Positions 13,328 to 44,178 of a stretch of DNA of 64,000 bases are shown here, one piece after another. Position numbers and translations under genes: made by a program. This DNA is from Meandrina meandrites (Eukaryota > Cnidaria > Anthozoa > Scleractinia > Meandrinidae): contig OY855914.1 in assembly GCA_963693305.1 (NCBI GenBank), forward strand, positions 10,786,403 through 10,850,402, written 5' to 3'. The notes below the pieces were generated by a model. The model was not told where the DNA came from and did not search any database. It saw only the letters and a program-made list of their open reading frames with translations. Numbering within the stretch: the first letter of the stretch is position 1; each line of letters starts with the position of its first letter.

Positions 13328-16300
13328 TTAATCGGTCTGAATGACATGAGGATCAATCAATTTCTCTAATTCCCTCACTTCCTTGACCTCAGCTGGTGAC
13401 AACCGGAACAGTGCAATTGCTTTTCTACTGAGGCCACTGAAAGCTCTGCGCGGTTTGTTACGTAGTTCAGCAACACTTTTCCCTGGAGAAAGATAAATAG
13501 ATAAATCAGACAAAAGGCCCAGAGAGGTTGGAAGGGGGAGAGGAAGGAAGGGAGAGGGAGAAAAGAAGGAAAGAAGGAAGGAAGGAAGGAAGGAAGGAAG
13601 GAAGGAAGGAAGGAAGGAAGGAAGGAAGGAAGGAAGGAAGGAAGGAAGGAAGGAAGGAAGGAAGGAAGGAAGGAAGGAAGGAAGGAAGGAAGGAAGGAAG
13701 GGTCGTTTCCCAAAATTTCTGATCCGTGCAACGCTCTTAATTAATTTCTCTGAGTAGACATTTTATCTGCACCTAAGCTGTTCATTCCAACAACGTAAAT
13801 GGTGAGCAGTTCTTCTGGATTGCGTTTGGTTTTGTCTGCCTGTTCTAGCCGACATTTATAGCATTAGTTTAAAATATGTCCTCGGACATTAGGGAACGAA
13901 AACTGAGGCCCAAATCATTCGTATATTGGTTCATTGATTACGCTTTAAAAATAGAAAACTAACTGATATTGATTTCCGCCAAATTCGAAAAATCTGCCTT
14001 TTCCGCCATCAAACGTAAAGGAATGCTATTAGCAGTCATCCTGCACTTTCCCAGGTATAGAACAATTCTCCTTTCTGTAATTGGAAGAGAGGGTTTTCCC
14101 GGATTTCCCGGAGAACCGACTTACAGTTAAGGGAAGTAATGTAATACGTGAGCTCGATATGCAAGAAGCGCGATGCCAATAACAGTGCAATTTCAGGTTA
14201 GCATCTGCTCGAGGATTGTTTTTAGAGAAAGAAATTACGGCAAATTTTTAACTATTGACGCATATTATATTTTTCTTTATTCAGGGTGTACCCAATATTG
14301 CGTTCTTCCTGAAATTTCAACGCAGTAAAAGAAGAAAGCTAGCATTTAGACTCTTGGTTTTTGGCCATTGTAACTTGATTGATAACATAAACAAGTTAGC
14401 AATGCGATTTTTCATAATGTGTATTACCACTGTTTGCTTCATGTTTTTAATAAAGCTAGCATTATTGAAGGAATGGCCAAAGAAAGCAGTCTAAGTAAGG
14501 ACGATGAACAGTCAAGCCAAATTCCTAGTGCCACAAGCGAGCAATGGCTTAATGGAAGCTTGCAAGTGTAAATTAGTCCCTGTGACGCGCTATTTCGTAT
14601 TCGGTGCCGTTATTACTACGCGGAACGGTGCTCCTGGAAGTCCAATTTCCGTCCATAAAGCATTACGGAATTGTGGAGTGGTGGTTACTGTACATCATGT
14701 TAGCATTCATTCACGCAAAATATTAACTTACGAGGGTTTTCTGTATCGAAGAGTGTTGCCATAGTGTCACGAGCTACTGGAAAGAAAAACCTTCAACCGA
14801 CATTAATTAGGCTGTTCTTTATTATAGCATTCCTCACCGAACTAGAGGTTTTATTTCAACTCAAACTGCAACAGTTTGGCAATTATTTGCATTTTTGTTT
14901 GTCTTTCATGATCAGATTCAGTTCCAAGACGGAATTGAGACACCAGCTACCTAAGAATTGTAGCAAAGTTCTAAAAGATCATAAAACCAATTCATGCAAT
15001 ATCTCATAAGCTCGTCATTTCAACGAAGCTTTGAAGAAGAAGCAAGAAACTTCAAACATCAAGACAATGTGGAATCGAATGACGGAAAGAGATTGTCCAA
15101 CATTATTAGTAAATGACATTGCCATTGGTATGGAAAAGGTTGACTACGCGGTTACGTCTTCAAGAAAGAGATCCTTAGCTGTTCAAGCGGTTCACGTTTT
15201 ACTGTCCGTTGTCTGTCAAATTTTACTCTCGTATTTTGGCTTCAGCCCTCTTCTTAGGAGAATCTCCGTATGGTATTCATGTAACTTCCAGGATCAACCT
15301 TCAAGTTCAACCTTCAAAAACACGCAAACAACAAATTTTGGGAAACTCTTTTTACCCGATAGTTATTACCCGAGCTGGCGAATCAAACAAATTAAACATC
15401 AACTTTATCAGTAAGGGCTATATTTTGACTTCCTACCTTTCATTTCTTCTCTCATGATTTCTTCACTTTGGAATGGTTCATACTCCACAGCTACACCTCC
15501 TGGCTGGTTTAAAAGACAAATCATTTCGGCGGGAAAAAGAGTCGTAGATGGCATGGTCTCGTCAACGCTCGGAAAGTACGCGTGCTTATGAGCGTCACTT
15601 CTACTCTGCCAGTCATGCCAGATCTTATCTATAAAGCCGTGATGAAGGAAAAATTCTGGAGCGGAAGCGGCTTCCTCTGTGCACATTGTACCATTTATGT
15701 TACAATGTACGTTGTCATGGAGTACGGTTCTAAGAGCTAATTCAAATTTATGGAATGGGTTCATTCTTAAGACTTCTTCCACACATACCTCTTCAGGAGG
15801 AGTTCCCCAGAAGTCCCGCAATAGGCAGTGTGGCCCTGGACCTGCCCAATTTGGTCTCACTCGGCTCCATTTACCTTTTCTAAAAGGACCCGTCAGAACG
15901 CAATGATCTTCTCCTTCGCCGTTTCCGCCAAACCCAGTCTGACTGTGCCAAACGTCTTCCGGATTTGTTGTACTAAAAGGATCTCTTGAATCTAGGCTCC
16001 AGTCCCAGTAGGCTACCGTGAACGTGCAATCGACCTTTCGCAGAAGGTTTTCGTAGCGCAGTATATAATAGCGATGCCAGGGAAGAAAGTGCTTCTTTTT
16101 GTGAATGTCAGTGTGAAAGTAGTGGTAGTGCTCATTTATAAGGCTTTCGTATTCTGGCCTGAATGTTGGACTCGTGGATACCGTTTCTATGGTACTGATA
16201 TGACGCCGTCGTTCTGCATATGTCATGGATGAGAATTCTTTTCGAATTCGAACGCAGTTCACCAAACGACCACCAACACAGCTACATCGCTGTCCACAAC

Positions 16301-17834
16301 TGTCGTATGACTCACTTCCATCTTGACAGGCTGAAACAAAAGCACCTATTTTTAATTTTTTTATTAGGATAGCCGGCATTGTTGGTTTTGCTTTTGTTTT
16401 CTAATGTTTTTTAGCCTTTTTACAATGAAATAAAGATATAAGAATGTCACTTAAGATACTATTTAAGCAGACTAAAAAAAAGAAAAAATAAATTACCTTT
16501 ATTTAGACACGGTAGTATTTAAAGTTAGAAGCTTGTGGGGCCGTGTATTCCCGATCGAATTGGAATTTGGAAGTTTTCGTTTTTTATGGAGGGAGGAAAA
16601 CCCTCGGAGCAAGGACGAGAACCAACAACAAACTCAACCCACATATGATACCGGGCCGGAATCGAACCCGTGCCACATTGGTGGGAGGCGAGCGCTCTCA
16701 CCACTGCGCCACCCCTGCTCCCAGACACACAATAACAACGCCGTTATAGCTGTTTCTGCATTTTGACATTTTCGACCTTGGTAATAATAAAGGCGGTAGC
16801 AATCGATGAAACATATTGTTGTTCTGAAAGAACTCAGAAACAATTTTGTGTCTCGGACACACATTTTGTGTCCGCGACAATGTTGTGCGTGGGGGCAAAC
16901 CGGGAAACATTTGTGTCCGCAACATTGGGTCCTCGTTTGTAACTGCCTTGACGACATTTCAACATTTTTTTTTTAACGAGCGCGCGGGTGGTAAGAAATA
17001 TCCAACGATGCGGGTAAAATCGAGTTAGAAAATGAAAGAATACAAATTATTAAAAACTAGCAATGTTATATTGCAATTTGTGAGTTTTGATTGGTCAATA
17101 GGCAATGGTATATTAACTCATATACCATTAAACACAAATATCGTAACCGATACGCGTCAATGTAAACAGTACCACATTCTGTTTGAATCCTTTGTTATTA
17201 ATAAGGGATGGGCACGCGGAGAGACGAAGTATTCAGTTTATTTGGCACAGCGAGGAAGCAAGAATCAAGGCACTTGAAAAAGAAAAACATACCTGACGAT
17301 TAAAAAAATATATATATTCTTGACGACAAGCTGAGCCAGATAAGTGCGTGAAAGATAATCGCCAACTGAAATTTCCTCCCTCCCTCCCTCCCTTTCTCGA
17401 TTTCCCAATTACCTTTTAAGTTTTTATTAACCAATAGGAAGATGCGAGAAATCAGTATGTCCAAACGGCGGCTTACGAAGTGTAAATTATTGCATAATCA
17501 TCGGATTCCAACAGAATATGAATATTCAAATAACTTTGAATAGCTGGGAAGCTCAAATATTGCATTTTCTTGCGAAAAAATACTATCGCATATCAAGTAT
17601 TACCTGGACAATAAACTGACGCGCTCGTCAGCCTTGAAGTATATTTCCTATATTTAAAGTTTTCAGTCGCGAAAGGCCGCCAGAAATCCATGAAGATGTT
17701 CTATTTTCACCATTCCATAAAACTAAGGTTACAGTAGAAAATTGCTCACCTCCAGGAGGATTAGGAAGAAAAGGAAACTGCAAAGAATCTGCGAAACACA
17801 CGAACGAAAGAACAAGAAGACTCAAGTCAATCAT
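13328..17834 (-). CDS. Secreted tyrosinase 1 (type-3 copper enzyme, three exons)
   Basis: Exons are 17,834-17,750 (85), 16,330-15,437 (894) and 13,482-13,328 (155); all joins are phase 1 and sum to 377 residues. Exon 1 encodes a signal peptide (MIDLSLLVLSFVCFADS). Exon 2 opens with a Cys-rich VWC-like stretch (residues ~30-54, CGQRCSCVGG), then the tyrosinase core. The CuA site is around H96-H114 (HKKKHFLPWHRYY). The CuB site is H233 and H237 (LHDNVH) plus H258/H259 (FFLHHGFIDKIW). All copper ligands expected for the family are present, so it is probably active in phenol/catechol oxidation (melanisation or matrix cross-linking). Exon 3 encodes a basic helical C-terminus shared with tyrosinase 2. 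A strong acceptor 20 bases before the ATG implies a 5' UTR intron running back into the AGAAG satellite. Confidence 0.9.
13558..13701. repeat. AAGG tetranucleotide microsatellite in tyrosinase 1 intron 2
   Basis: About 33 near-perfect AAGG units, about 80 bases upstream (in the gene's sense) of the last exon. On the sense strand it reads CCTT, a long pyrimidine run ahead of the acceptor. Frames across it are artefacts. Confidence 0.95.
14255..15414 (+). other. Unrecognised open-frame cluster inside tyrosinase 1 intron
   Basis: The plus strand has overlapping open frames of 79, 86, 81 and 127 codons in different frames, denser than neighbouring introns. The ATG at about 14,473 starts MAKESSLSKDDEQSSQ and reaches a stop after 32 codons. 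Shifted frames continue with hydrophobic patches (VHVLLSVVCQILLSYFGF). This could be a decayed intronless gene or retrocopy, perhaps of a membrane receptor, but no motif identifies it. Confidence 0.25.
16531..16722 (-). mobile_element. tRNA-derived SINE in tyrosinase 1 intron 1
   Basis: The minus strand begins GGGGTGGCGCAGTGGTGAGA and has the B-box GGGTTCGATTCC, then the same tail as the copy in the lectin 1 intron (GGGTTGAGTTTGTTGTTGG, CTTGCTCCGAGGG). It lies in the gene's sense orientation. Confidence 0.8.
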
Positions 17835-17982: not shown

Positions 17983-18988
17983 TTGAGTAGAGTAGAGTAG
18001 AGTAGAGAAGAGAAGAGAAGAGAAGAGAAGAGAAGAGAAGAGAAGAGAAGAGAAGAGAAGAGAAGAGAGGAGAGGAGAAGAGGAGAAATGAGATGAGATG
18101 AGAAGGGAAGGGAAGAGAAGAGAAGAGGAGAGAAGAAAAGAAAAGAAAAGAGAAGAAAAGAGAAGAGAAGAGAAGAGAAGAGAAGAGAAGAGAAGAGAAG
18201 AGAAGAGAAGAGAAGAGAAGAGAAGAGAAGAGAAGAGAAGAGAGGAGAAGAGGAGGGATGAGATGAGAGGAGATGAGATGAGAAGGGAAGGGTAGAGAAG
18301 AGAAGAGAAGAGAAGAGAAGAAAAAAAAAGAGAAGAGAGAGAAGAGATGAGAAGAGAAGAGAAGAGAAGAGAAGAGAAGAAAAGAGAAGAGAAGAGAAGA
18401 GAAGAGAAGAGAAGAGAAGAGAAGAGAAGAGAAGAGAAGAGAAGAGAAGAGAAGAGAAGAGAAGAGAGGAGAGGAGAAGAGGAGAGGAGAGATGAGATGA
18501 GATGAGATGAGATGAGATGAGATGAGAAGGGAAGGGTAGAGAAGAGAAGAGAAGAAAAGAAAAGAAAAGAGAAGAAAAGAGAAGACAAGAGAAGAGAAGA
18601 GAAGAGAAGAAAAGAGAAGAGAAGAGAAGAGAAGAGAAGAGAAGAGAAGAGAAGAGAAGAGAAGAGAAGAGAAGAGAAGAGAGGAGAAGAAAAGAGAAGA
18701 GAAGAAAAGAGAAGAAAAGAGAAGAAAAGAGAAGAGAAGAGAGAGAAGGGATGAGAAGAGAAGAGAAGAGAAGAGAAGAGAAGAGAAGAGAAGAAAAGAG
18801 AAGAGAAGAGAAGAGAAGAGAAGAGAAGAGAAGAGAAGAGAAGAGAAGAGAAGAGAAGAGAAGAGAAGAGAGGAGAAGAGAAGAGAAGAGAAGAGAAGAG
18901 AAGAGAAGAGAAGAGAAGAGAAGAGAAGAGAAGAGAAGAGAAGAGAAGAGAAGAGAAGAGAAGAGAAGAGAAGAGAAGAGAGGAGAAT
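17983..18988. repeat. ~1-kb AGAAG pentanucleotide satellite
   Basis: About 1 kb of nearly pure purine on the plus strand built from AGAAG units. It is punctuated by a recurring variant block (GATGAGATGAGAAGGGAAGG) near 18,090, 18,270 and 18,500, which gives a loose higher-order period of about 180-245 bp. It lies about 150 bases upstream of the tyrosinase 1 start, so on the gene's sense strand it is a CTTCT polypyrimidine tract. The very long Ser/Leu/Phe frames across it are artefacts. Confidence 0.95.
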
Positions 18989-19494
18989 TATTAGTGCTAA
19001 TTCCTATTGTGGAGACTGAGTGTGCCAAGAGACATAGAAAAGATACAAAGAAGCATACAAAAGACATGCAAAAACATGCTTAGAGCAAACAACATGCATC
19101 AGCAGTAACAGACTTGTACCTTCACAGATAAATATTCGAGGCTCATATATAAGTATAAACAAAGTCAAAAAGAGAGATTCTGATTTTACACAGATCAGGG
19201 AAACATAGGGGCGACGCTTCATTGCAAATGGAATGAACAACATTTTAGCTGAAGACTATTTCGTTTGGTTGAAAACTACTGCTTTTAGTTCCTAGGTGTA
19301 CACAGTAGATACCTTTTAAGTTTTTGAGAAAGCATTTTTAAAAGAGGTGGAGATTCTTTCGTCTTAACTGACAGGCAACAGCTGTTGATGGATTCGGAAG
19401 GATCGGGTCTCAGTCAGTCACAACAGTCACAACAGTGCTAACTAGGGAATAATCATCACGGACAATTTGGCATTTTTTTAGACGTGCTATAAGG

Positions 19495-31745: not shown

Positions 31746-33392
31746 CTAAGACCTCAACGGCTGAAGTAGCTTCTCCAACTCCTTTGCACGCTTCACTTCG
31801 GATGGCTTCAGGCGAAACAATTTGAAAGCCTTTTCACTGAGACGAGAAAATGGTCGTCGTGGGATGTGATGCAGCCTGCTGAAACTCAGACCTAAAAAAT
31901 GCATTTCGGAGGTCACTTCAACATAAATAGTAACATTCCATACCATTTGCCCTTAGTGGGACACTATCACGGCTGATCATTGAAATTTCTTTTTTTCTAA
32001 TTTCCTTCAATATATTGCCAAATACCACCAAATACATGAATTAATTTCATAAAAAGATCCCAAAAAAAAAGCAAGATAGAATGGCTATTTTGAGGAAAAA
32101 GTACAGGATTTCAAGGATGGAAGTGGATTGGGATTGATATTTGGACAGGATGTCCAGATATCAAAGCTGCCATTTTGTTGAAATTTTTTATTAGTCACTT
32201 TTTCCTCTTACTTGATATTTCTTAGCTTTTACCACTTTTAACATTTCTCTCTTCCTATTGCATGGCAATAGAGCGCAATTATAGCAAGCTATCGGCCATT
32301 CTTATAAAATACGATATTTCAGGCATGACAGTGTCCCTTTAACATAATATAGAGCTGAAAACTAAGATGCCTACCTCTTAGAAGTGGTAACACATTCGCA
32401 GCTCCTTTTGGTGGCTGGTACTCCACTCGAACACCACCTGGTTGTAAGGAAAGATTGATCACTTCGCGAGGGAGCACTTGGGTACCTGGCATGACCTCGT
32501 TAACAGAAGGAAAGAACGCGTTCCTATGGGCGTCACTTTTCTTCTGCCAGTCGTCCCAGATTTTGTCGATGAAGCCGTGGTGAAGGAAAAACTCTGGAGC
32601 GGCGGCGGAATCCAGTGAGCACATCGTACCGTCAATCAAGCAATGTACCATGTCGTGCAGATTGATTCTGAGCATGATCTCAAAATCAGAGAAGTTACCC
32701 GCCGCTATTCGCAAGGCCTCTTGCACTGCTACAGAATCTGGTGGGTTCCCATTGAACATCCGTGCTAAGCAGCGTGGGCGCGGTTCCGGTGGAGATCCCG
32801 CTGGAAGTGGCACGAGGCTCCACTCACTCTGTCGAAAAGGACCCGTCTGGACACAGGCAGTAAAACCCTCGCCATTCCCACCAAAGCCAGTGTCCGCACT
32901 GTGCCAAAGGTCTTCAGGATTTGCTGTGCTGAATGGATTACTGGAAACCAGACTCCAATCCCAATATGCTATGGTAAAATTACAATCGACTCTGCGAAGG
33001 AGATTCTCATAAAGAAGCATAAAATACCGATGCCATGAAAGGAAGTGTGTGGCCTCGTGAATGCCTGACATGAACAGTGTCCTGTGATCATTGATGAGGT
33101 TATCGTAGTCTGTCTTGAATCTCGGATCAGTGGAAGCTGTTCTTATTACTCTTATGTAACGCTCTCTCTCGGCAAACGTCATGGACGTGAATTCTTTTCT
33201 TATTCGAACGCAGTTCATCAATTGTCCGCCAACACAGTTGCACCTTTGGCCGCAACGATCAAATGAGGTACTGCCTTCTTGGCAAACTGAAATAAAGAAG
33301 AATTAATAAGACTAACTTATAACTAAAGATATTCTCTATTAAAAAAAACCTCCCTTTACCTGCTGCTGGGGCACCAAAGGTATTTAATTTAG
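31746..33392 (-). CDS. Tyrosinase 2 module (likely 3' part of a TSP1-tyrosinase gene)
   Basis: Exons are 33,392-33,360 (33-base mini-exon, tentative), 33,286-32,375 (912) and 31,891-31,746 (146), all phase 1. The large exon begins with the same Cys-rich stretch as tyrosinase 1 (CGQRCNCVGG). It then has CuA (HEATHFLSWHRYF with upstream His in NDHRTLF) and CuB (LHDMVH and FFLHHGFIDKIW). The copper ligands look complete, so enzymatic activity is expected. The last exon encodes a basic C-terminus homologous to that of tyrosinase 1 (RLSEKAFKLFRLKPSEV). Unlike tyrosinase 1, no signal-peptide exon lies nearby; the short region upstream is a SINE and then TSP1 exons on the same strand ending in phase 1. 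It may therefore be the C-terminal catalytic domain of that gene. The mini-exon is supported only by phase and splice consensus. Confidence 0.85.
31958..32337. mobile_element. 380-bp MITE filling the last tyrosinase 2 intron
   Basis: Inverted ends GGGACACTATCACGG (left) and the complement of GGGACACTGTCATG (right). It occupies most of the 483-base intron between the last two exons. No target duplication is evident and there is no coding sequence. Confidence 0.6.
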
Positions 33393-33534
33393 CTGCAATT
33401 CATCTATTAAAAATATATGTAAAATGAGATCGAAGAAATAGCCGGTAATAATAACGAAGCCTGGTGAGTAAATATCAAAAAAATTTTATAGTATTTTCTA
33501 AATGAAAAAAATGATATGTTTATTTTGTCACAAG

Positions 33535-33720
33535 CGTGAGGCAAACGGGAATCGAATCCGTGGTCTCCCAGATACCAGCAGTTGGGCGCTCTAACCACCG
33601 AGCTACGAGAGACTCGTGGTGAGCTTGGCCATTTACTAGGTTCATATGTGACACGCGTCCTGCATACTGCTAGGATTAGCAACGTCAAAAGTGCCAAATG
33701 TGTAATAAATATCGTAATTA
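33535..33720 (-). mobile_element. tRNA-headed SINE-like repeat
   Basis: The minus strand has CTCTCGTAGCTCGGTGGTT and the B-box GATTCGATTCCCG, a full tRNA-like head followed by CACGCTTGTGACA. The 5' flank (CTAATCCTAGCAGTATGCAG, CTAGTAAATGGCC) is shared with the copies at 526 and 55,680. The signal-peptide-like frame over this flank is therefore repeat-derived. Confidence 0.75.
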
Positions 33721-34094
33721 TTTATCAATGCTTTCCATTGAAAAATAAATACCTTAGTGTTTAATGCTAGGATGTTTAGAAGTTGTTATGGAGATGCGAT
33801 AATTCTCATAAAATAATACATTACATTTTAAAGAATTATGTATGACTGCAGTAATGCCTTTATGTAACAAATATAGTAGTAAAGCCAGAGGCTAATTTTC
33901 AAGGGGATGGTGTAACTCCTGGGACTACAGAAAGATGAATTCTTACAAAAGAAATGCTACGATATTAAAAAAAAAGGTTCTTGCCCACTTCTTTCAATAA
34001 ATGACTTTATTTTTAAGCAAATTAGTAAATTATGTTTTGCTTGTTAGTTGGTCGCCATAATTATATAAGAAGCACCCCTAATCTCCACTCTTAC

Positions 34095-37000
34095 CTGGGC
34101 ACGCATCACTGTTGCACAGTTGAGACCGCGAGCTGGTTCCTTGACATTCGCGGCCTCCACTGCTTGGAGAAGGATTGGTACAGGTGCGTGTTCGTACTTG
34201 CCTTCCTCCACCACACGTTTCACTGCAGCTGCCCCAGGCTCCCCAGTTTGTCCAACCGCCATTGACTTCAAGGAAAAAAAAAACTTACGTAAATAATATC
34301 ATTATTGGAGGGAAATACGAATGGCCCGGGTTGAGTACATGGGCATCCATTGGTGTTGCAAGATTGGGACTGGGAACCAATCCCCTGGCAAACTGCACCG
34401 CCATTATTTGTAGGAGGATTGGTGCAAGCACGCATGCGTGTTTGAGCTCCACCACCGCATGTTAGACTACAGCTGCCCCAGGCTCCCCAATTTGACTATC
34501 CACCATTTACTGGGATAAAAATAGTACCCAGTGGGTACATGAGTCTAATGCGTCATGGATTGTTAGTGCGGTTGAAATATGTTGAAGTAGTTTCGGTATT
34601 TACGGCATAGAGCAAGAGGTGTAGTAGAGGTTTGGTAGTAAGAGTGGTTCAGAAGAAGTCGATAATATTTGTTCTCTTAAGTAGATATATTTAGAAAGTT
34701 GACGAAATGTTATATTTGAAATAGGAAAAACATGTTACTCAGGGTTTGAGTTCATCGATTCATGTTAAAAGATTAGTGCGTTGTAGAAAATAGGAAGATC
34801 GTACAGATTTGTTTGTCTTGGAAAAAATTTCATCTTCCAAAAAAATAATGGTCCGCCCCATAGATAGACAAGATACAGCCGCTTATTCAGTATTCTAAAT
34901 ATCCTAAATCCCATCAAAATAAGCCAAAATATATATTTTTTTTTCAATTCCTTTGCAATTTATGCAATACTGCTCAACAAAGATTTCAATTTCCTTAAAC
35001 GTTTCGACACAGGACAGCAAAGAATACATTGCGTGCAGAATGTAATTAAATTAAGCGAAATATTTTCACGGCTATTAAACACTGCAAGCAGTTGAATGAA
35101 AGAGTTTTGTTTTCATGACTGAGAACAGCTTTCAAATAGTCAATACATGGAAATAACAATCAGATCTTGACTACTTTTTGGCAAGTTTCAATATTTATGC
35201 AAATTTCGCGCGAAATGTGATTTGATTACACTGTTTTGTTTTCAAGCTCTAGATTGAATCTTGAATGGTGAAAACAAAACTCTTTTTAATGAAAGTTGCA
35301 TTCTGTGAATGAAATCCTGCTTCAGTTGAATTGAACAATCAATTTCTGACTACAATGTTATTTAATTTACCATTTTTTTCAAAGTTATTTTTTGTTTATG
35401 AACACAAATGTCACCTCCGGATTTTTTTCATCAAAAGATGTCGATTTCACGTTGCGTTTCACAGGGTTATAAAAAAACATGCAGCTGGAAGGAGAAAATT
35501 TTCAGTGGCTTCACACGTGAAAACGAGGATTCATATTATTTTGCACTGTAAACCATTTATTCCAATTACATAGATGACAATTTCTTTTACAAGTGCGTGT
35601 CGTGCTCGAGCTCCGTTCGACCGTTGCGTCGTTAACAACATCCTTGCTTCCTGATTGGATTACGATCACCGCACCAAGCCCGCAATGGGGCGGGCTATTG
35701 TTTAAGCACAATTACACCAAATGATTATCGATCCCGAACCATTCCCCTGGGATTGCTAACAGCTTTTTTCTACTACATAGAGTCTAATGCGCATGCTCAT
35801 TAGACTCAAAAAGTGATACACGATAATTGTAAATCGAAAGTAACAGATTTCACCTCTTGCATTTCCTTGTTTATTAATTGTTTTGATTCAGTTTTGATCT
35901 AGACTCTTGCCTGAACATCCATTGGTGTTGCAAGACAGAGATTCAGAACTACTTCCTCTACAATCGACACCACCAATATCTGGTGGAAGATTGGTGCAGG
36001 TACGCCTACATGTCTGTATTCCAGTGCCACAAGGTAAGCTACAAATGCCCTAGATTTGACCAACCGCCATTGACTATACAGGCAAGAAGGTGTACACAAT
36101 TTGAATTGAAATTATAATAGATTGGCGGTTTTAGCGAGAGTTACATAATATTGATAGCTCGTAAAAGGAGTAAAATGTATGGATCGGTCCGTGGCGATTC
36201 CTCACCGTTGAAGAGAGGTGGCCGTTAGTAGCGATTCGAACGAACCCATGTTTCAAATTTGAATTAGGGGTCGCACTTCTTTCTTTAACTTGTTCTTATT
36301 GTTTTAATTGGCTGATGAAATGAATCTCACCTGGGCATCCATTGCTGTTGCAAGATTGCGACTGGGAACTACTCCCTTGACAATCAACACCGCCACTAGT
36401 TGGGCGGGGATTGGTACAAGTACGCATGCGTGATTGAATTCCACCGCCGCATGTCAGACTACAGCTGCCCCAGACTCCCCAGTTTGACCAACCACCATTG
36501 ACTAGAAAGAAAGAACTGGCCGTTCACAGTGTAACGGATCACACGTTTTGCGTTTAAAACAATTTTTGTTTATCATACTCTTGCAATTATAAATAACTCT
36601 TACCTGGGCATCCATTGGTATTACAAGATTGGGACTGGGAACTATCCCCTTGACAATTAGCACCACCGATGGCCGGGGGAGGGTTGGTACAAGTACGCGT
36701 GCGTGTTTGTGTTCCACTGCCACAGGTAAGGGTACAGCTGTCCCAGACTCCCCAGTTTGCCCAACCACCATTGACTAGAAAGAAAGAACTGGCCGTTCAC
36801 AGTGTCATTCAAAATATACATATGCTTCAATTGAAGCGTAACGGATCACACGTTTTGCGTTTAAAACAGTTTTTGTTTATCATACTCTTTCAATTATAAA
36901 TAACTCTTACCTGGGCATCCATTGGTATTACAAGATTGGGACTGGGAACTATCCCCTTGACAATTAGCACCACCTATGGCCGGGGGAGGGTTGGTGCAAG

Positions 37001-39689
37001 TACGCGTGCGTGTTTGTGTTCCACTGCCACAGGTAAGGGTACAGCTGTCCCAGGCTCCCCAGCTTGACCAGCCGCCATTAACTATAGAAGAAAAGAAATA
37101 AAGAGCGCTGGATTTGAAATCTGCTAGATCTTAAAAGTTGTTCTTAGTTTTCCCGAGTTCTTCTTTAATGACGCCGAAGAACTGGCCATTCACAGTGTCA
37201 TTCAAAATATACATATGCTTCAATTGAAGCGTAACGGATCACACGTTTTGCGTTTAAAACAATTTTTGTTTATCGTACTGTTGCAATTATAAATAACTCT
37301 TACCTGGGCATCCATTGGTATTACAAGATTGGGACTGGGAACTATCCCCTTGACAATTAGCACCACCGATGGCCGGGGGAGGGTTGGTACAAGTACGCGT
37401 GCGTGTTTGTGTTCCACTGCCACAGGTAAGGGTACAGCTGTCCCAGGCTCCCCAGCTTGACCAGCCGCCATTAACTATAGAAGAAAAGAAATAAAGAGCG
37501 CTGGATTTGAAATCTGCTAGATCTTAAAAGTTGTTCTTAGTTTTCCCGAGTTCTTCTTTAATGACGCCGAAGAACTGGCCATTCACAGTGTCATTCAAAA
37601 TATACATATGCTTCAATTGAAGCGTAACGGATCACACGTTTTGCGTTTAAAACAATTTTTGTTTATCGTACTGTTGCAATTATAAATAACTCTTACCTGG
37701 GCATCCATTGGTATTACAAGATTGGGACTGGGAACTATCCCCTTGACAATTAGCACCACCGATGGCCGGGGGAGGGTTGGTACAAGTACGCGTGCGTGTT
37801 TGTGTTCCACTGCCACAGGTAAGGGTACAGCTGTCCCAGGCTCCCCAGCTTGACCAGCCGCCATTAACTATAAAAGAAAAGAAAATACAGAGCGCTGGAT
37901 TTGAAATCTGCTACATCTTAATAATTGTTCTCAGAATTTCCTCTTTTATGACGCCGATGCAATTTTCCTCACAGATAGAAATTTTGATCATTTTATTGCT
38001 TCATTATCTGTTTAAGCCCTGAAAGATTCAAAGGGGCCCGGTTTAAATACATTTACGTTAAAAAAAACTGTAAGATGCATATCTTCTTGCCTTGCTTATA
38101 GGAAAAATTTATTTTACATATACCCATACAAATAAGAAAATGAAATTCTGCTTCCTTACCTGAACATCCGTTAGTGTTGCACGACTGGGATTCTACACTA
38201 CTCCCTGTGCAATCCGCACCGCCACTAGACGGAGGTGGATTGGTGCATGTTCGCAAGCGTCTTTGTGCTCCACCACCACACGTGAGACTGCAGCTGCCCC
38301 AGGCTGACCAATGTGACCAGCCACCATTAACTAGGGGAGAGATTGACAGTTTCAATCGATATGCACAAGCCTTTCAAATCGCTAGCAGCTTCTACAGGAA
38401 TTGATTTCTTACCTGGACACCTATTCGTGTTGCAAGATTGGGACTGGGAGCTATCCCCTTGACAGTTGGCACCACCGTTTCCTGGGGGAGGATTCGTGCA
38501 AGTACGCATGCGAGCTTGTGATCCGCTTCCGCATGTCTGACTACAACTGGTCCAAGTTCCCCAATTTGACCATCTGCCATCAACTAGAGACGGGAAGAAA
38601 GAAAAATGTCTAATGAAAAATAGTGCACATCATTTAAAGGTTAATTTTCTTTTCATCCTTTATCTTTTAAAGCTAAACTAATGTCGGTAAGGATTTTAAG
38701 TAAGTGGAGTTAAAAAAATTGGGTTACGGAAATGGAAGAAAATTCTAAAATCAAAGAATATATCTCTCAGGTAAGCATCCATTTGCATCGCTCTTACTGC
38801 TAGATTCAGGAAAATATTCATTCGACAATTGGCGCCACAAGTGGCGGATAGAAGATTATCACAACTGCACAGGTGTCTTTTTCGTTCCACCTCCACAACT
38901 GGCAACTTGATCATCCACAGTTGGCTAAAAACTAAGGTTTGGAATTTTCAAATGAAATTATTTGAACAAAAAATTATATTGTACCGTTTGAGAGTGATAA
39001 ATAATTTGACTTTGAGTAGCGTAACATACATGTATGAAATATAGTAATTTGGTAGAAATGTATTTCTTACCTGAACATCCATTTGTGTTGCACAATTGGG
39101 ACTGGGAACTACTTCCTGAGCATGCAGCGCCTCCACCAGAAGGAGGTGGACTGGTGCATGTACGCATGCGTGTCTGCGACCCACCACCACAAGTCAAACT
39201 GCAACTCCCCCAGGTTCCCCAAATTGACCACCCGCCATTCACTAAACATATAAAAATATCAAATAATATTACAAATAAAATCCCTGCAAGGACTTCACTG
39301 CATTGCAAAAACCTTATAATTTCATAATTTCTAGATGAGCAGTAAAAGAGTGTTTTCACCTGAACATTCATTTGTGTTGCACGGCTGGGACTGGGAACTA
39401 GCTCCTGAACAACTGACGCCACCATCAGAGGGAGGTGGACTGGTACAGGTGCGCATGCGTGTTTGTGTTCCACCACCACATGTTTGGCTACAGCTTCCCC
39501 AGGCTCCCCACTCAGACCATCCGCCATTGACTATTGTAAAGTAAATATTTTCGATTAAAAAGTTGCATGGTTTTTCCTTATCCTCTCTTCTTCTTCATGT
39601 TGTAATTAGTTGTAATACCCTCCATACTGCGATTATAGGGTCGACGTTTGCACTTGTTAATAATGATAGTAATAATAACAACAATAAGA

Positions 39690-39727
<38 letters not shown>

Positions 39728-42700
39728 GTTGCATTTTACGTTTTGACTAAATTCCTACAGTGGTACGTTTAAAATACATTTATAAAAGTAAAACTAGGTT
39801 TCTCTTACTTGGACAAATGTTTGTGTTGCATGACAAGGTCTGTACGCTATCTCCTTGACAAAAAGCTCCCCCATTAGACGGAGGAGGACTGGTACAGGTG
39901 CGCATGCGCGTTTGGGATCCACCGCCACATGTTAGAGTGCAGCTGGTCCAGGCTCCCCAAGTTGACCATCCACCATTTACTGGAAAAAAGCAGAAATTAA
40001 CAGCAGGATAAAACAGTTATGTTACCAATTATTTTCTGACTTTGATTGTAGCCGTTAATTCTAGTGCTGTTATCTGTTATCATTCTGTAAGCATTTAACC
40101 CAGTGTTTGTAAGTTCTTGGTTCTTCTGTTGTAGAATTGAAAGGCAGTCCACTTCTAGAGTGAGTCAGAAGGGGAAATGGAGAAATGGAAGAAGAAGAAT
40201 ATAGCAAGCAGAAACTGCTTAAATTTTGTTGATAATAAATTCAAATTAAGAAAAAATCGAAATGATGCTTATACTGAAGGAGGAATATTCTCCTCTTAGT
40301 TTAATCGAAATTGTATGGCTCACTTATACGGTATTCAACTCCATTCCAGTCTCGATCAGGTCTGTTAAAACAAACATCGATAAATGCAGAGTCAGTCTTG
40401 TAATGGAAGGGGTTAGCAAGATCATTTACCTGGGCAACCTGTGGTCGCACACTGCTGATACTGAGAACTGCTGCCCTGGCAGCTTCGTGAGCTACATGTA
40501 CGCGTGCGTGTTTGAGATCCTCCTCCACAAGTCTGGCTACACTGACTCCATGCACCCCATTGTGACCAGATTCCACCGCCTGAAAGTTAAACGAGATAAA
40601 ACGTAACGAAAGTAAGCGAGAAAGGAATATTTATTTTCTTAAAAAAACGAATAGAGACCAAGGTCTATCTCTAGACACTCAAAAGCGTTGTATTATTTCT
40701 AACGCTTTTGAATTGATTTTCATGTAATTCATTGAATAAATGAATGACTAAAGTGATGTTCAATCGTTATCTTGCAACAAGGATCCATCCATCATCGAAG
40801 CACTATATTTTTATTATTATTTTCAACACAACGAAGTTTAATGATTCACTTCCCAAAGCCAACACGTGGAATTGAGGTAATGTGAGATGATTCAATCTGG
40901 TACAACTGACAGCCTTCAGTTAGTATATGAACCTCTTACAAAGCGAGCAAGCAAAGAAATGTAACGTTTATAGTGGTCATGCACTTAGATTCGAGATAGC
41001 TAGTTTTCAGGTATGCCACTTAAGCAACAACAACAACAAAAACGACAACTCTATTTAACCCTTAATCATTTTTACAAAAGGAAAAATTAGTAACAAGCAT
41101 AAATAGATAATTTAAGGTGTGACCGCCTGAAATAACTAGAAAGTTAAAATGGGCAGGCAGCCAGTTCTAAAATTATGTTAACACAAGCTTAGGCCGGAAA
41201 ACACATAAACAACACAGAACATGCAGTGAGAAAAAATCGATAATATTAACCACTTACTTCCGAGCGCGAGGTCCGTACTGGGAAATATTGGCACGAGGTC
41301 GTGGCAGTACGCTGCGCTCGGTCCGTACAAAAACGACCGAGGGCCAATATTCCCCAGTACGTACGGCTCGAGTAAGCTAGGTTAATAAGTATTTTATTAT
41401 ATGGCAATCGTTTTAGCTTTGAATTTGCCGGCTTTTGAAAACAAAAAAAAAATACACGGCTTTTGACCGTTTTCACGGAAACGGTCCGTATGACAAAATC
41501 CCGACCAAGAAGCAACCAATCAAAACACTCGGATATGCCTTAAGATTGCATTGCCATATAATGAACTAAAATACACATGTGGAATGTCAAACAAGAAAAA
41601 AAAAACTGTTGTTTTGTAAAACAAACAGCGGAAAATATATAGCAAACATTTTAATAACAATTTACAGGAGGTAAACCGGTTTGCTTTATACCGAAAACAA
41701 CTCCAGCTAGAGGCCCAGTGGAGGGTTTCAAATCCGAACATCCAGATTCAGGCGCCCTACACCACACGGCTACGCTACCTCCTAAAAATGTAAAATAATG
41801 AACAAACGAATATAAACGAAAAGTAAGACGGCTAACTTACCTGTCGGATTATCAATCTTGTAAACAGAAACTAGCCACGGACCTCCAATGCCATAGAAAC
41901 ACGAATAGGATTGTTTCCTTTTGCTGGTGACAGAGAGACCATTTGGACCCCAGGCGCACTGACCGTAGTTTTTGATAGCAAAGTGCGAGTACTTCCTTTT
42001 GACGGCTTCCTTTGCACAGGCTTGGATCACGTGACTCATATCAGGCAGTTTTGCCCAATCAATTTTGTTTCTGTAATCAAGGTATACCTTGTAGAACAAT
42101 TGGTTATAGTACGATTCTCTATAACATCCCAGGTACTTAACGTGGACTTGGCCTAAAAAGAAACACATACTTTTGATTAATGTGCGAAAAGTAATGATTA
42201 TCAAAAGACAGTTATCGCCAGGAAAAAATCTTTGCTCTGAAAAGCTAATATACGTTAATGTTAAATTGTCTTAAGAAAGCATCGTTCTTGGCTTGAATTT
42301 TGAAATGATGTCACGATCTAACATTACCAAATAATTATGCACTATACAAAGGTATTAGGCTTTATAACATGGTTATGACTTCACCCGACATTATTAAATC
42401 AGGTAAAACAATTCGTAAAAAATACTTTCATAATTTAGCATGTTGTGTTTATAAATATTCGAGTTCGACCATCTCAACACACAGGATCCGTTGTCTGCTT
42501 CTAAAGCTTGACAATGCATGAATTAAGGTATATAAAAGAAGATGAGAACTTTAATAATATATGATAATTCGTTTGATCCTCTTTTGTCTTCACCTACTAT
42601 TTATATTTGTCAGCAAATTACCCTTTTACATTCGCTCGTGTGAAGAACGAAGGAATGTTTATTTTTCTCTCTTTACAAATAATTTTTAAAATAGAAATAT

Positions 42701-44178
42701 GTTGATGATGAATGATGGCTGTCCGTCAAGTATTCAGGACCTCAAATAAGGAACAATAATCAACATCATATCACTCACAATATCACGTGTTTATAATGAC
42801 AATCATTGGATACAGAGGAATGTCGTAAAAGAACAGCGTTAGACACTAACTCGAAGTATTTCTCGCATTCTTACTTCAAATTATTTTAATGTATAATTGA
42901 ATTTGAAATAGAAGTATTAGCTGACGTGTAATTTTCAGCCACATTCTATGGAACAGAAAAAAAACTCCAAATCATTCTTGGGTATTCTTTGCTATTGTCT
43001 ATCCTCTCAAGGCGATTTTTGAACGCTTTTAATTCAATGAATATTGCAACAATGAAGGAGAGCTCTGCGTGAGCTTTGCGAATTTGCTTTGTTCTTTAGT
43101 TGTTTTACATAAATGTTGCGTTGGAAATAAAAAGATATTGGATATAACGTAACACTCCGCTCAGGAATTAGACAACAAAACCGGTTTTACTAGTTGTATT
43201 TCTTATAACAAAAAAATAATGAGGCAGCAGTTCAAATCTGAAGGAGCAATTCCAACGCGCTAAATTTTCGCTGTTTTAAGTTTAAAAATTCGTCATAATC
43301 ACAGCAATTTTCAAATATAACTATCTTTCCACTTCAACTAACCAAGAGTAAATTTGCGTGAGTGCGTATATTAAAATATTTCCAGTTCAATGCATTAGTT
43401 ATAAAAAGATATCAGATACGTCATCTATAAGTTAAACTTCCTTAAAACAAATTGAAAGACAGCACTGGTAATTACTGTATGCTTAAGATAATTAGTTCAA
43501 ATATGAACATGGACTAAAGGATTGCTAAAAATAACCATTTCATTTGGAATTTATAAGAAACCCGCAATATTTAAGAGGAAAGTGAGCTCAAGATGTCTAA
43601 CGCTATATAGGATGTTTACGATTTATGAACAAACTTGAAAACACGGAATTCTTTTCAAGCTCACAAAAAGTCATGTTGTTTATAACATTTATGTAATTCT
43701 TTTTCCATAGAAAACGGCGCTCATCTAGACAAAGCTCATCGGTTTTACGCCATAAATTGACTGGGCATTGGTAGCATTGCATTAATTACAGACGACATGA
43801 AAGAAGAGTTACAATAGGCATTCACCCTTGAGAGGGAATATTGTGGCTAGTTTGATCCTTGCTCCGCGTCAACAAATTGCAAACAGCGAGCAACATGTGA
43901 TAAATAAAAATTGGGGAGACTGCCAGAAAATCAGTAATACTTTGCGAGCGACGGGGCTTTATTGCAATAACAAGTTAAAACGTAAGGTATTGTGCTTCAC
44001 AATAAAACGGAATTTTACGCTTTCCTTTATGAGGCCAATATCCTGACCGTTCATGTACCCATTACTTTCCTTATTCTGTTTCCTATCAAATATAGGAAAA
44101 AGTCCTACCTTGAACCACGCGTGATAAGCACAGTGATAGAAGAATTCCCACGAGAAAGATAATCAATTTGCCCGTCAT
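34095..44178 (-). CDS. Secreted TSP1-repeat protein with N-terminal WSC/PAN-like module
   Basis: Exon 1 (44,178-44,109) encodes a signal peptide ([19 protein letters not shown]). Exon 2 (42,152-41,841) encodes a Cys module of about 104 residues starting [13 protein letters not shown], with [10 protein letters not shown] and SCFYGIGG, resembling WSC/PAN-type domains in cnidarian extracellular proteins. Twelve intact TSP1 exons follow, with 3' ends at 40430 (150 bases) and then 39809, 39360, 39071, 38413, 38160, 37697, 37304, 36911, 36604, 36331 and 34095 (171 bases each). Each encodes WSxWGxW, CSxTCGxG and a final CNTNxC. WxxW and CxxTCG fit C-mannosylation and O-fucosylation sites. All exons are phase 1-1, so skipping or duplicating any keeps frame. 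The last donor (34,094) is intact but no stop-bearing exon belongs to the array, so the transcript must continue, most simply into tyrosinase 2. Confidence 0.88.
34330..34508 (-). pseudogene. Decayed TSP1 exon (nonsense plus lost donor)
   Basis: A full-length TSP1 exon by homology. The first conserved Trp codon is TAG (VNGG* instead of VNGGW), and the donor CCCAG|GTAAG has become CCCATGTACT. The rest ([16 protein letters not shown] ... CNTNGC) is open, so the damage is recent. Confidence 0.8.
35911..36073 (-). pseudogene. Decayed TSP1 exon (8-base deletion, GC donor)
   Basis: Length is 163 instead of 171 bases. The loss falls between the first two Trp positions, shifts the frame and exposes a stop. 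The donor is GCAAGAG rather than GTAAGAG. Downstream of the lesion the domain is still readable ([17 protein letters not shown] ... CNTNGCSG). It would have to be skipped in mRNA; phase 1-1 flanks allow that. Confidence 0.8.
37082..37867 (-). repeat. Perfect 393-bp tandem duplication carrying TSP1 exons
   Basis: Units 37,082-37,474 and 37,475-37,867 appear identical by eye across exon and intron. The neighbouring exons at 36,911 and 36,604 are near-identical, at 393- and 307-bp spacing. It is a very recent amplification, likely copy-number variable, and a place where an assembly can collapse or expand. Confidence 0.85.
38763..38932 (-). pseudogene. Heavily decayed TSP1 exon
   Basis: On the minus strand the frame after [10 protein letters not shown] contains two stops, and a shifted remainder reads [10 protein letters not shown], matching the [13 protein letters not shown] end of intact exons. 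The opening VNGGW segment is mutated. It sits between intact exons at 39,071 and 38,583. Confidence 0.65.
39691..39726. repeat. AAT trinucleotide microsatellite
   Basis: About twelve AAT units in a TSP1-array intron. Confidence 0.9.
41250..41566. repeat. Foldback/MITE-like repeat in TSP1 gene intron
   Basis: Contains inverted words TTATATGGCAAT (41,397) and ATTGCCATATAA (41,550), and a second inverted pair GTCCGTACTGGGAAATATTGG versus CCAATATTCCCCAGTAC (41,270-41,360). It is probably a nested pair of small elements. Confidence 0.5.
41700..41785 (-). repeat. tRNA-like repeat fragment
   Basis: The minus strand reads GGAGGTAGCGTAGCCGTGTGG followed about 30 bases later by GGATTTGAAACCC, a degenerate tRNA-type A-box and B-box. 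It lies about 60 bases downstream of the Cys-module exon. Confidence 0.45.

Follow-up and report, generated by a model that had tools for sequence, protein, structure and literature searches.

We analysed a 64,000-nucleotide stretch of the genome of the coral Meandrina meandrites (assembly GCA_963693305.1, contig OY855914.1, forward-strand positions 10,786,403 to 10,850,402; hereafter the window). Its minus strand, between 44,178 and 31,746, carries an exon chain in which an array of TSP1 repeats runs into a tyrosinase (tyrosinase 2), and from this exon structure one TSP1-array/tyrosinase gene is well supported in Meandrina. We put the probability that this is a single gene encoding a targeted, secreted phenoloxidase at about 0.8. 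On the sequences, the fusion itself is nearly certain; the targeting role is the softer part of the reading and is best called probable. What carries the reading is the exon chain, the recurrence of the fusion in other animals and in another gene of the same genome, the predicted folds and the six copper-site histidines. Spliced as we infer, the transcript would encode a protein for secretion, some 1,156 residues long, composed of a signal peptide, a WSC-like module, twelve TSP1 modules, a five-cysteine hinge, the tyrosinase and a basic tail. The WSC and TSP1 parts would hold the enzyme, a type-3 copper oxidase, on matrix, mucus or microbial glycans; it would make quinones in place, and these would feed protein cross-linking or melanin.

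Exon structure of the fusion gene

Reading exon borders on the minus strand as AG acceptors and GT donors, we recovered every element of the chain proposed in the initial annotation, with AG acceptors and GT donors throughout and all joins in phase 1. The chain opens with a 70-nt exon ending in phase 1 (44109..44178), whose signal peptide was judged by eye, without a predictor; the start of the Oculina patagonica model P0003 resembles it. The 312-nt exon of the WSC-like cysteine (Cys) module follows (41841..42152), and then TSP1 exon 1 (40430..40579, 150 nt). All further TSP1 exons measure 171 nt: exons 2 (39809..39979), 3 (39360..39530), 4 (39071..39241), 5 (38413..38583), 6 (38160..38330), 7 (37697..37867), 8 (37304..37474), 9 (36911..37081), 10 (36604..36774), 11 (36331..36501) and 12 (34095..34265), the last with a gtaaga donor from 34094. 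A dead thirteenth TSP1 exon, with an in-frame TAG and its donor lost, lies between exons 11 and 12 (34339..34509). The hinge and tyrosinase share one 912-nt exon of phase 1-1 (32375..33286), and the terminal exon (31746..31891) encodes a basic 47-residue tail and the stop; most of the homologues aligned have tails like it. The summed coding length is 3,504 nt, which reproduces the earlier figure of 1,168 in-frame codons (including the stop) when a 33-nt candidate linker exon (33360..33392) is counted; without it, the total is 1,157.

This 33-nt exon, put forward in the initial annotation, is probably not used, to judge from its sequence, and we have dropped it. Its acceptor has 6 pyrimidines in 15 positions, versus 9–14 in 16 other acceptors of this gene and of the neighbouring tyrosinase 1 gene. 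Fragments of its peptide were absent from all 227 fetched proteins, a comparison of few pieces in a region where linkers vary. Three micro-exons of this kind can be read in the intron, and 52% of shuffled introns contain at least one.

Fused relatives and a second gene

A homologue search that took the full 1,156-residue model as query and was scored on the tyrosinase part, a design in which only fusion-length proteins are findable, returned 12 matches. Nine of these (P0001–P0009) carry both TSP_1 and Tyrosinase, and the remaining three have fibronectin II, sushi and CUB modules instead. Three of the nine come from Actinia tenebrosa and two from Logan contigs; the others belong to Oculina patagonica, Porites evermanni, Acropora palmata and Stylophora pistillata. 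Among the matches listed in wider searches (120 of 353 and 120 of 145), further fused proteins came from Montipora foliosa, Acropora muricata and at least three more sources; one of these proteins, P0051, nearly equals P0006. The domain search suggested in the initial annotation, for TSP1 and tyrosinase in one protein of other anthozoans, has thus succeeded in seven named species, which we take to be corals and one sea anemone.

The closest counterpart examined, Oculina LOC144628471 isoform X5 (P0003), has the same architecture as the window gene, with ten TSP1 repeats (counted as Pfam stretches) and a tyrosinase part that is 90% identical. The same plan recurs with eight TSP1 repeats in Acropora palmata LOC141863598 (P0007), three in Stylophora LOC111339216 (P0009) and seventeen in Actinia P0008. 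Actinia LOC116301419/20 share signal peptide, TSP1, hinge, tyrosinase and tail with the window gene and are without the WSC-like module. The junction between array and enzyme is tight: in 14 of 16 junctions, from 14 fused proteins, 1–4 residues separate the last TSP1 cysteine from the first hinge cysteine, the exceptions being P0005 (22 residues) and P0061 (8 residues). Without the 33-nt exon the window model has 2 residues here, as has Oculina. The contigs of P0004 (700 residues) and P0006 (658 residues) measure 2,494 and 2,467 bases, each with one long frame, and are probably transcripts.

We also searched the animal's own genome (551 Mb, 56 contigs), in which the window is C12:10,786,403-10,850,402. 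About 3 kb short of window position 1, at C12:10,778,003-10,783,804, the same strand carries a second gene. Its parts follow the order of the window gene: a WSC-like exon, then four TSP1 exons, a tyrosinase and a tail piece. It differs in its shorter array and in sequence, its tyrosinase being 58% identical to tyrosinase 2 and its WSC exon 36% identical to that of the window. Its last TSP1 exon and its tyrosinase exon, both with phase-1 borders, are separated by an intron of 202 bases, in which a promoter and signal exon of the tyrosinase's own could hardly fit. The 2.7 kb scanned for a signal exon of this second gene yielded no clear candidate. The fusion gene proposed in the initial annotation is thereby borne out by its relatives, by their junctions and by a neighbour that repeats the plan; as read from these sequences, the fusion is real and common to other corals and a sea anemone, not private to this animal.

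Domains of the predicted protein

All twelve intact TSP1 exons, as counted in the initial annotation, exceeded the Pfam TSP_1 (PF00090) cut-off of 21.6 bits, scoring 39.8–49.5 bits, far beyond chance. Each module has six cysteines and two WxxW motifs, and the C(S/T)xTCGxG motif is likewise present in all twelve; we take these motifs to be C-mannosylation and O-fucosylation sites, respectively. The frame of the dead exon still scores 42.9 bits and is closest to Oculina module 9 (82%), which is intact in Oculina.

Comparison of the ten Oculina modules with the twelve live and one dead of the window points to a changing array. Window exons 1–4, 11 and 12 are each best matched by their own Oculina module (exon 1 is 92% identical to module 1, and exon 12 is 82% identical to module 10), exons 7–10 are all best matched by module 6 with module 8 a close second, and exons 5 and 6 have no clear Oculina counterpart. 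Judged by these modules, the array is undergoing copying and loss at one locus. The two 393-base units that begin with exons 7 and 8 are identical; exon 9 shares 99% identity with exons 7–8, and exon 10 95–96% with exons 7–9, each of exons 9 and 10 being followed by a shorter intron. This block of identical units and near-copies (37867-36604) may stem from a recent expansion in tandem, from gene conversion or from an error of assembly.

The presence of the Cys module was confirmed, and its identity can now be refined. Its exon is 86% identical to that of Oculina P0003, and its predicted structure (mean predicted local distance difference test score, pLDDT, 86.9) has as top fold matches Wsc1 (7pz2) and Kremen (5fws), with a further match to a region of Fusarium glyoxal oxidase (9n3u, 271-377), all at 16–25% sequence identity; the Kremen and 9n3u regions are presumably WSC domains. 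Pfam WSC (PF01822) scored below its curated cut-off (16 versus 27.8 bits, E 0.014), and we call the module WSC-like by the fold of its model. Glyoxal oxidase is a copper oxidase, but its oxidase part is unrelated to the window tyrosinase.

The tyrosinase matched Pfam PF00264 at 115 bits against a cut-off of 22.6 (E 8.6e-33). It keeps six histidines, H67, H76, H85, H210, H214 and H236 in the numbering of the exon translation, that we take to form the copper site; each position is His in 29–31 of 31 aligned rows. The predicted structure fits bacterial tyrosinases over about 240–245 residues and shares its catalytic fold with the single-domain enzymes of Bacillus megaterium (3nm8) and Streptomyces (2zwe), from which it differs by the added hinge, tail and arm and by an Asp after HisB1, the first CuB histidine.

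For the tree, 229 sequences (227 matches and two window models) yielded 223 domains, 164 of which covered the needed span, a rule that dropped 6 of 13 VWA-labelled proteins. Removal of near-copies among 132 unlabelled rows left a 111-row tree, built by a quick method with Shimodaira–Hasegawa-like approximate likelihood ratio (SH-aLRT) support only and a midpoint root; unlabelled rows include fragmentary models and are no proof of arm-less genes. A single branch (SH-aLRT 96) sets off a 41-row set that contains all 17 TSP1-fused rows. Within an 11-row set (SH-aLRT 99) the window enzyme groups with other TSP1-fused rows; seven of the eleven rows have TSP1, two have WSC only and two are unlabelled.

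One gene or two, and what role

The obvious alternative is a pair of adjacent genes, one for a secreted WSC-TSP1 protein ending at the stop at 34,078 and the other for a tyrosinase with a hidden 5′ exon. Several observations weigh against a single, targeted phenoloxidase gene, and some of them fit this alternative. The reading frame of the last TSP1 exon runs on past the donor until a TAG (34080-34078), at most 17 bases beyond the exon end, and an AATAAA follows some 67 bases further on (34011-34006), so a TSP1-only end is possible; the initial annotation was right that this exon has an intact donor. Tyrosinase 1 has a likely signal exon of its own. The scan for such an exon belonging to tyrosinase 2 found no candidate in 36,330-33,287, in keeping with the earlier claim that it has none, but by a weak rule that recovered the exon of tyrosinase 1 and missed the known one at 44178. 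Some of the relatives are also poor gene models: the long junction of P0005 is probably a retained intron, and P0001 and P0002 each look like two merged genes. In P0042 and P0050 (the latter N-terminally incomplete) a WSC module is joined to tyrosinase without TSP1, so the array is not essential. Parsimony on the tree requires eight TSP1-label changes, at least five of them forced by well-supported branches, and hence gains, losses or incomplete gene models; a single simple origin is unsupported. The enzyme itself raises a last doubt. Well-studied tyrosinases have Asn after the first CuB histidine, a residue typical of monophenolases though not obligatory, and since the window enzyme has Asp at this position (HisB1+1), its monophenolase activity is doubtful on sequence grounds. 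Set against the two-gene alternative are the fused relatives, two of them in transcript-sized contigs, and the second gene, whose 202-base intron led us to lower slightly an estimate that was already very small; we regard two separate genes as very improbable.

Granting one fusion gene, its role could lie mainly in structure or recognition, with a tyrosinase that is weak, acts on diphenols only, or hardens mucus, cuticle or skeletal matrix and does not make melanin. Asp at HisB1+1 is widespread (it occupies the site in 23 of the 31 rows aligned; the motif was located in 153 of 223 domains, and 93 of these have Asp), and in the portion of the walnut tyrosinase work available to us double changes at HisB1+1 and HisB2+1 abolished activity on L-tyrosine, but that portion describes no Asp mutant, and the window enzyme keeps all six copper ligands. 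The drifting length of the array and, in the partial source consulted, a tyrosinase among the skeletal proteins of Corallium rubrum would also suit such a role, to which we give rather less than an even chance. We attach a similarly low likelihood to alternative splicing, by which one gene would yield a fused and an arm-less tyrosinase, or variable arms; this would be compatible with a targeted phenoloxidase. The exons from Cys module to tyrosinase are all divisible by three and could be skipped in frame, the Oculina model carries an isoform number (X5), and TSP1-free relatives exist in P0042 and P0050, but these may be separate genes.

We return to the targeted phenoloxidase and its possible origin. 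Other partners of the tyrosinase unit, whether chitin-binding, fibronectin II, VWA or sushi modules, occur in P0136 (Actinia), P0010 (Montipora), P0119 (Dendronephthya), P0141 (Rhopilema) and P0011 (Corticium). A tentative idea, a little stronger than the two just discussed and still short of probable, is that hinge, tyrosinase and tail form a portable phase-1 cassette that was repeatedly given different arms in early animals, each aiming the same phenoloxidase at another surface. Corals and anemones would have received TSP1, sometimes together with WSC; octocorals, medusozoans, a single Actinia gene and, perhaps, two loci of the genome studied here, VWA; Montipora, fibronectin II; a sponge, sushi; and other sources, CUB and SRCR, with chitin-binding modules placed behind the enzyme in Actinia. 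The TSP1 form would then rank among the main candidates for the phenoloxidase behind immune melanisation in corals.

Neighbouring genes and other features

Searching the genome with PF00264 gave 32 exon-level matches, two of them inside the window. Around 15 of the others we surveyed 20 stretches of about 9.9 kb, reaching roughly 1 to 20 kb upstream, with six queries (two TSP1, WSC, VWA, fibronectin II and tyrosinase); other arms would escape this survey. TSP1 and WSC exons turned up at a single locus, and two loci had VWA-like stretches nearby. These stretches stand upstream, on the same strand, of the tyrosinases at C13:7027685-7030457 and C12:6563458-6566599, perhaps as VWA-tyrosinase genes. 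Counting the window's two, the one of the second fusion gene and a further one at C12:10769637-10771158, at least four tyrosinase genes are clustered here in tandem.

Tyrosinase 1 lies outside the fusion gene on the minus strand (13328..17834), with exons at 17834-17750, 16330-15437 and 13482-13328, the join of the last two being provisional. The first is likely its own signal exon, and by its exons the gene reads as stand-alone, as the initial annotation had it. That label needs qualifying, because its lineage (P0013) nests in the 41-row TSP1-containing set, beside the fibronectin-II form, and tyrosinase 1 may therefore have lost an arm. No motif of a fibronectin II exon (compare Montipora P0010) or TSP1 exon was found in its intron. 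Directly upstream of its exon 1 is about 1 kb of near-pure TCTCT-type pyrimidine repeat (18000-19000) with strong strand skew.

tRNA-like B-box sequences occur at 33559-33548, 16669-16658 and 5342-5331, two of them in the introns preceding both tyrosinase exons; they are perhaps insertions of short interspersed elements. ARAGORN did not call these sites, and Rfam gave no match in the window. Elsewhere in the window, an open frame at 48583-47513 matches Pfam Aerolysin (E 2.4e-63) and is a relative of pore-forming proteins, two similar C-type lectin exons lie on the minus strand (5083-4643 and 9349-8840), and a reverse transcriptase frame at 54878-53451 (RVT_1, E 6e-39) apparently belongs to a long interspersed element.

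Relation to prior work

The order TSP1 then tyrosinase has been printed before for a coral: a 2013 table gives Acropora digitifera TyrP1 (aug_v2a.08070) as four TSP_1 followed by Tyrosinase, an architecture that the consulted part of the paper leaves undiscussed (PMC3640398). In the open literature this was the one paper we found printing TSP1 plus tyrosinase for a cnidarian. In the accessible text of a 2022 study of ascidian Tuphoxins, which likewise have TSP1 before tyrosinase and place a phenol oxidase in the extracellular matrix, the combination is called new and a tunicate innovation (PMC9395347). The predicted anthozoan fused proteins contradict that exclusivity. Tuphoxins are nonetheless unlike the window gene, having EGF_CA (Styela) or cupredoxin (Halocynthia) and one TSP1, with no WSC mentioned in that text (PMC9395347). 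Neither EGF_CA nor cupredoxin was found in Oculina P0003 or in the ten window open reading frames scanned, a scan that did not include the joined window protein.

Among cnidarians, the available sections of a 2024 melanin study describe sampled species with TYR alone or TYR plus Laminin_EGF, and one of 14 tyrosinase-domain orthogroups as tracking melanin content (PMC11579526). In the part consulted of the Stylophora cell atlas, a tyrosinase is assigned to an immune cell type (PMC8162421). By the open literature, then, the Meandrina gene adds one more example to a little-described kind.

Melanin and phenoloxidase responses both occur in corals, and for resistance to disease it matters which proteins lie behind them. 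A secreted enzyme that carries an adhesive arm would be a concrete candidate for such a phenoloxidase, at a locus where a TSP1 exon array appears to be both growing and decaying.

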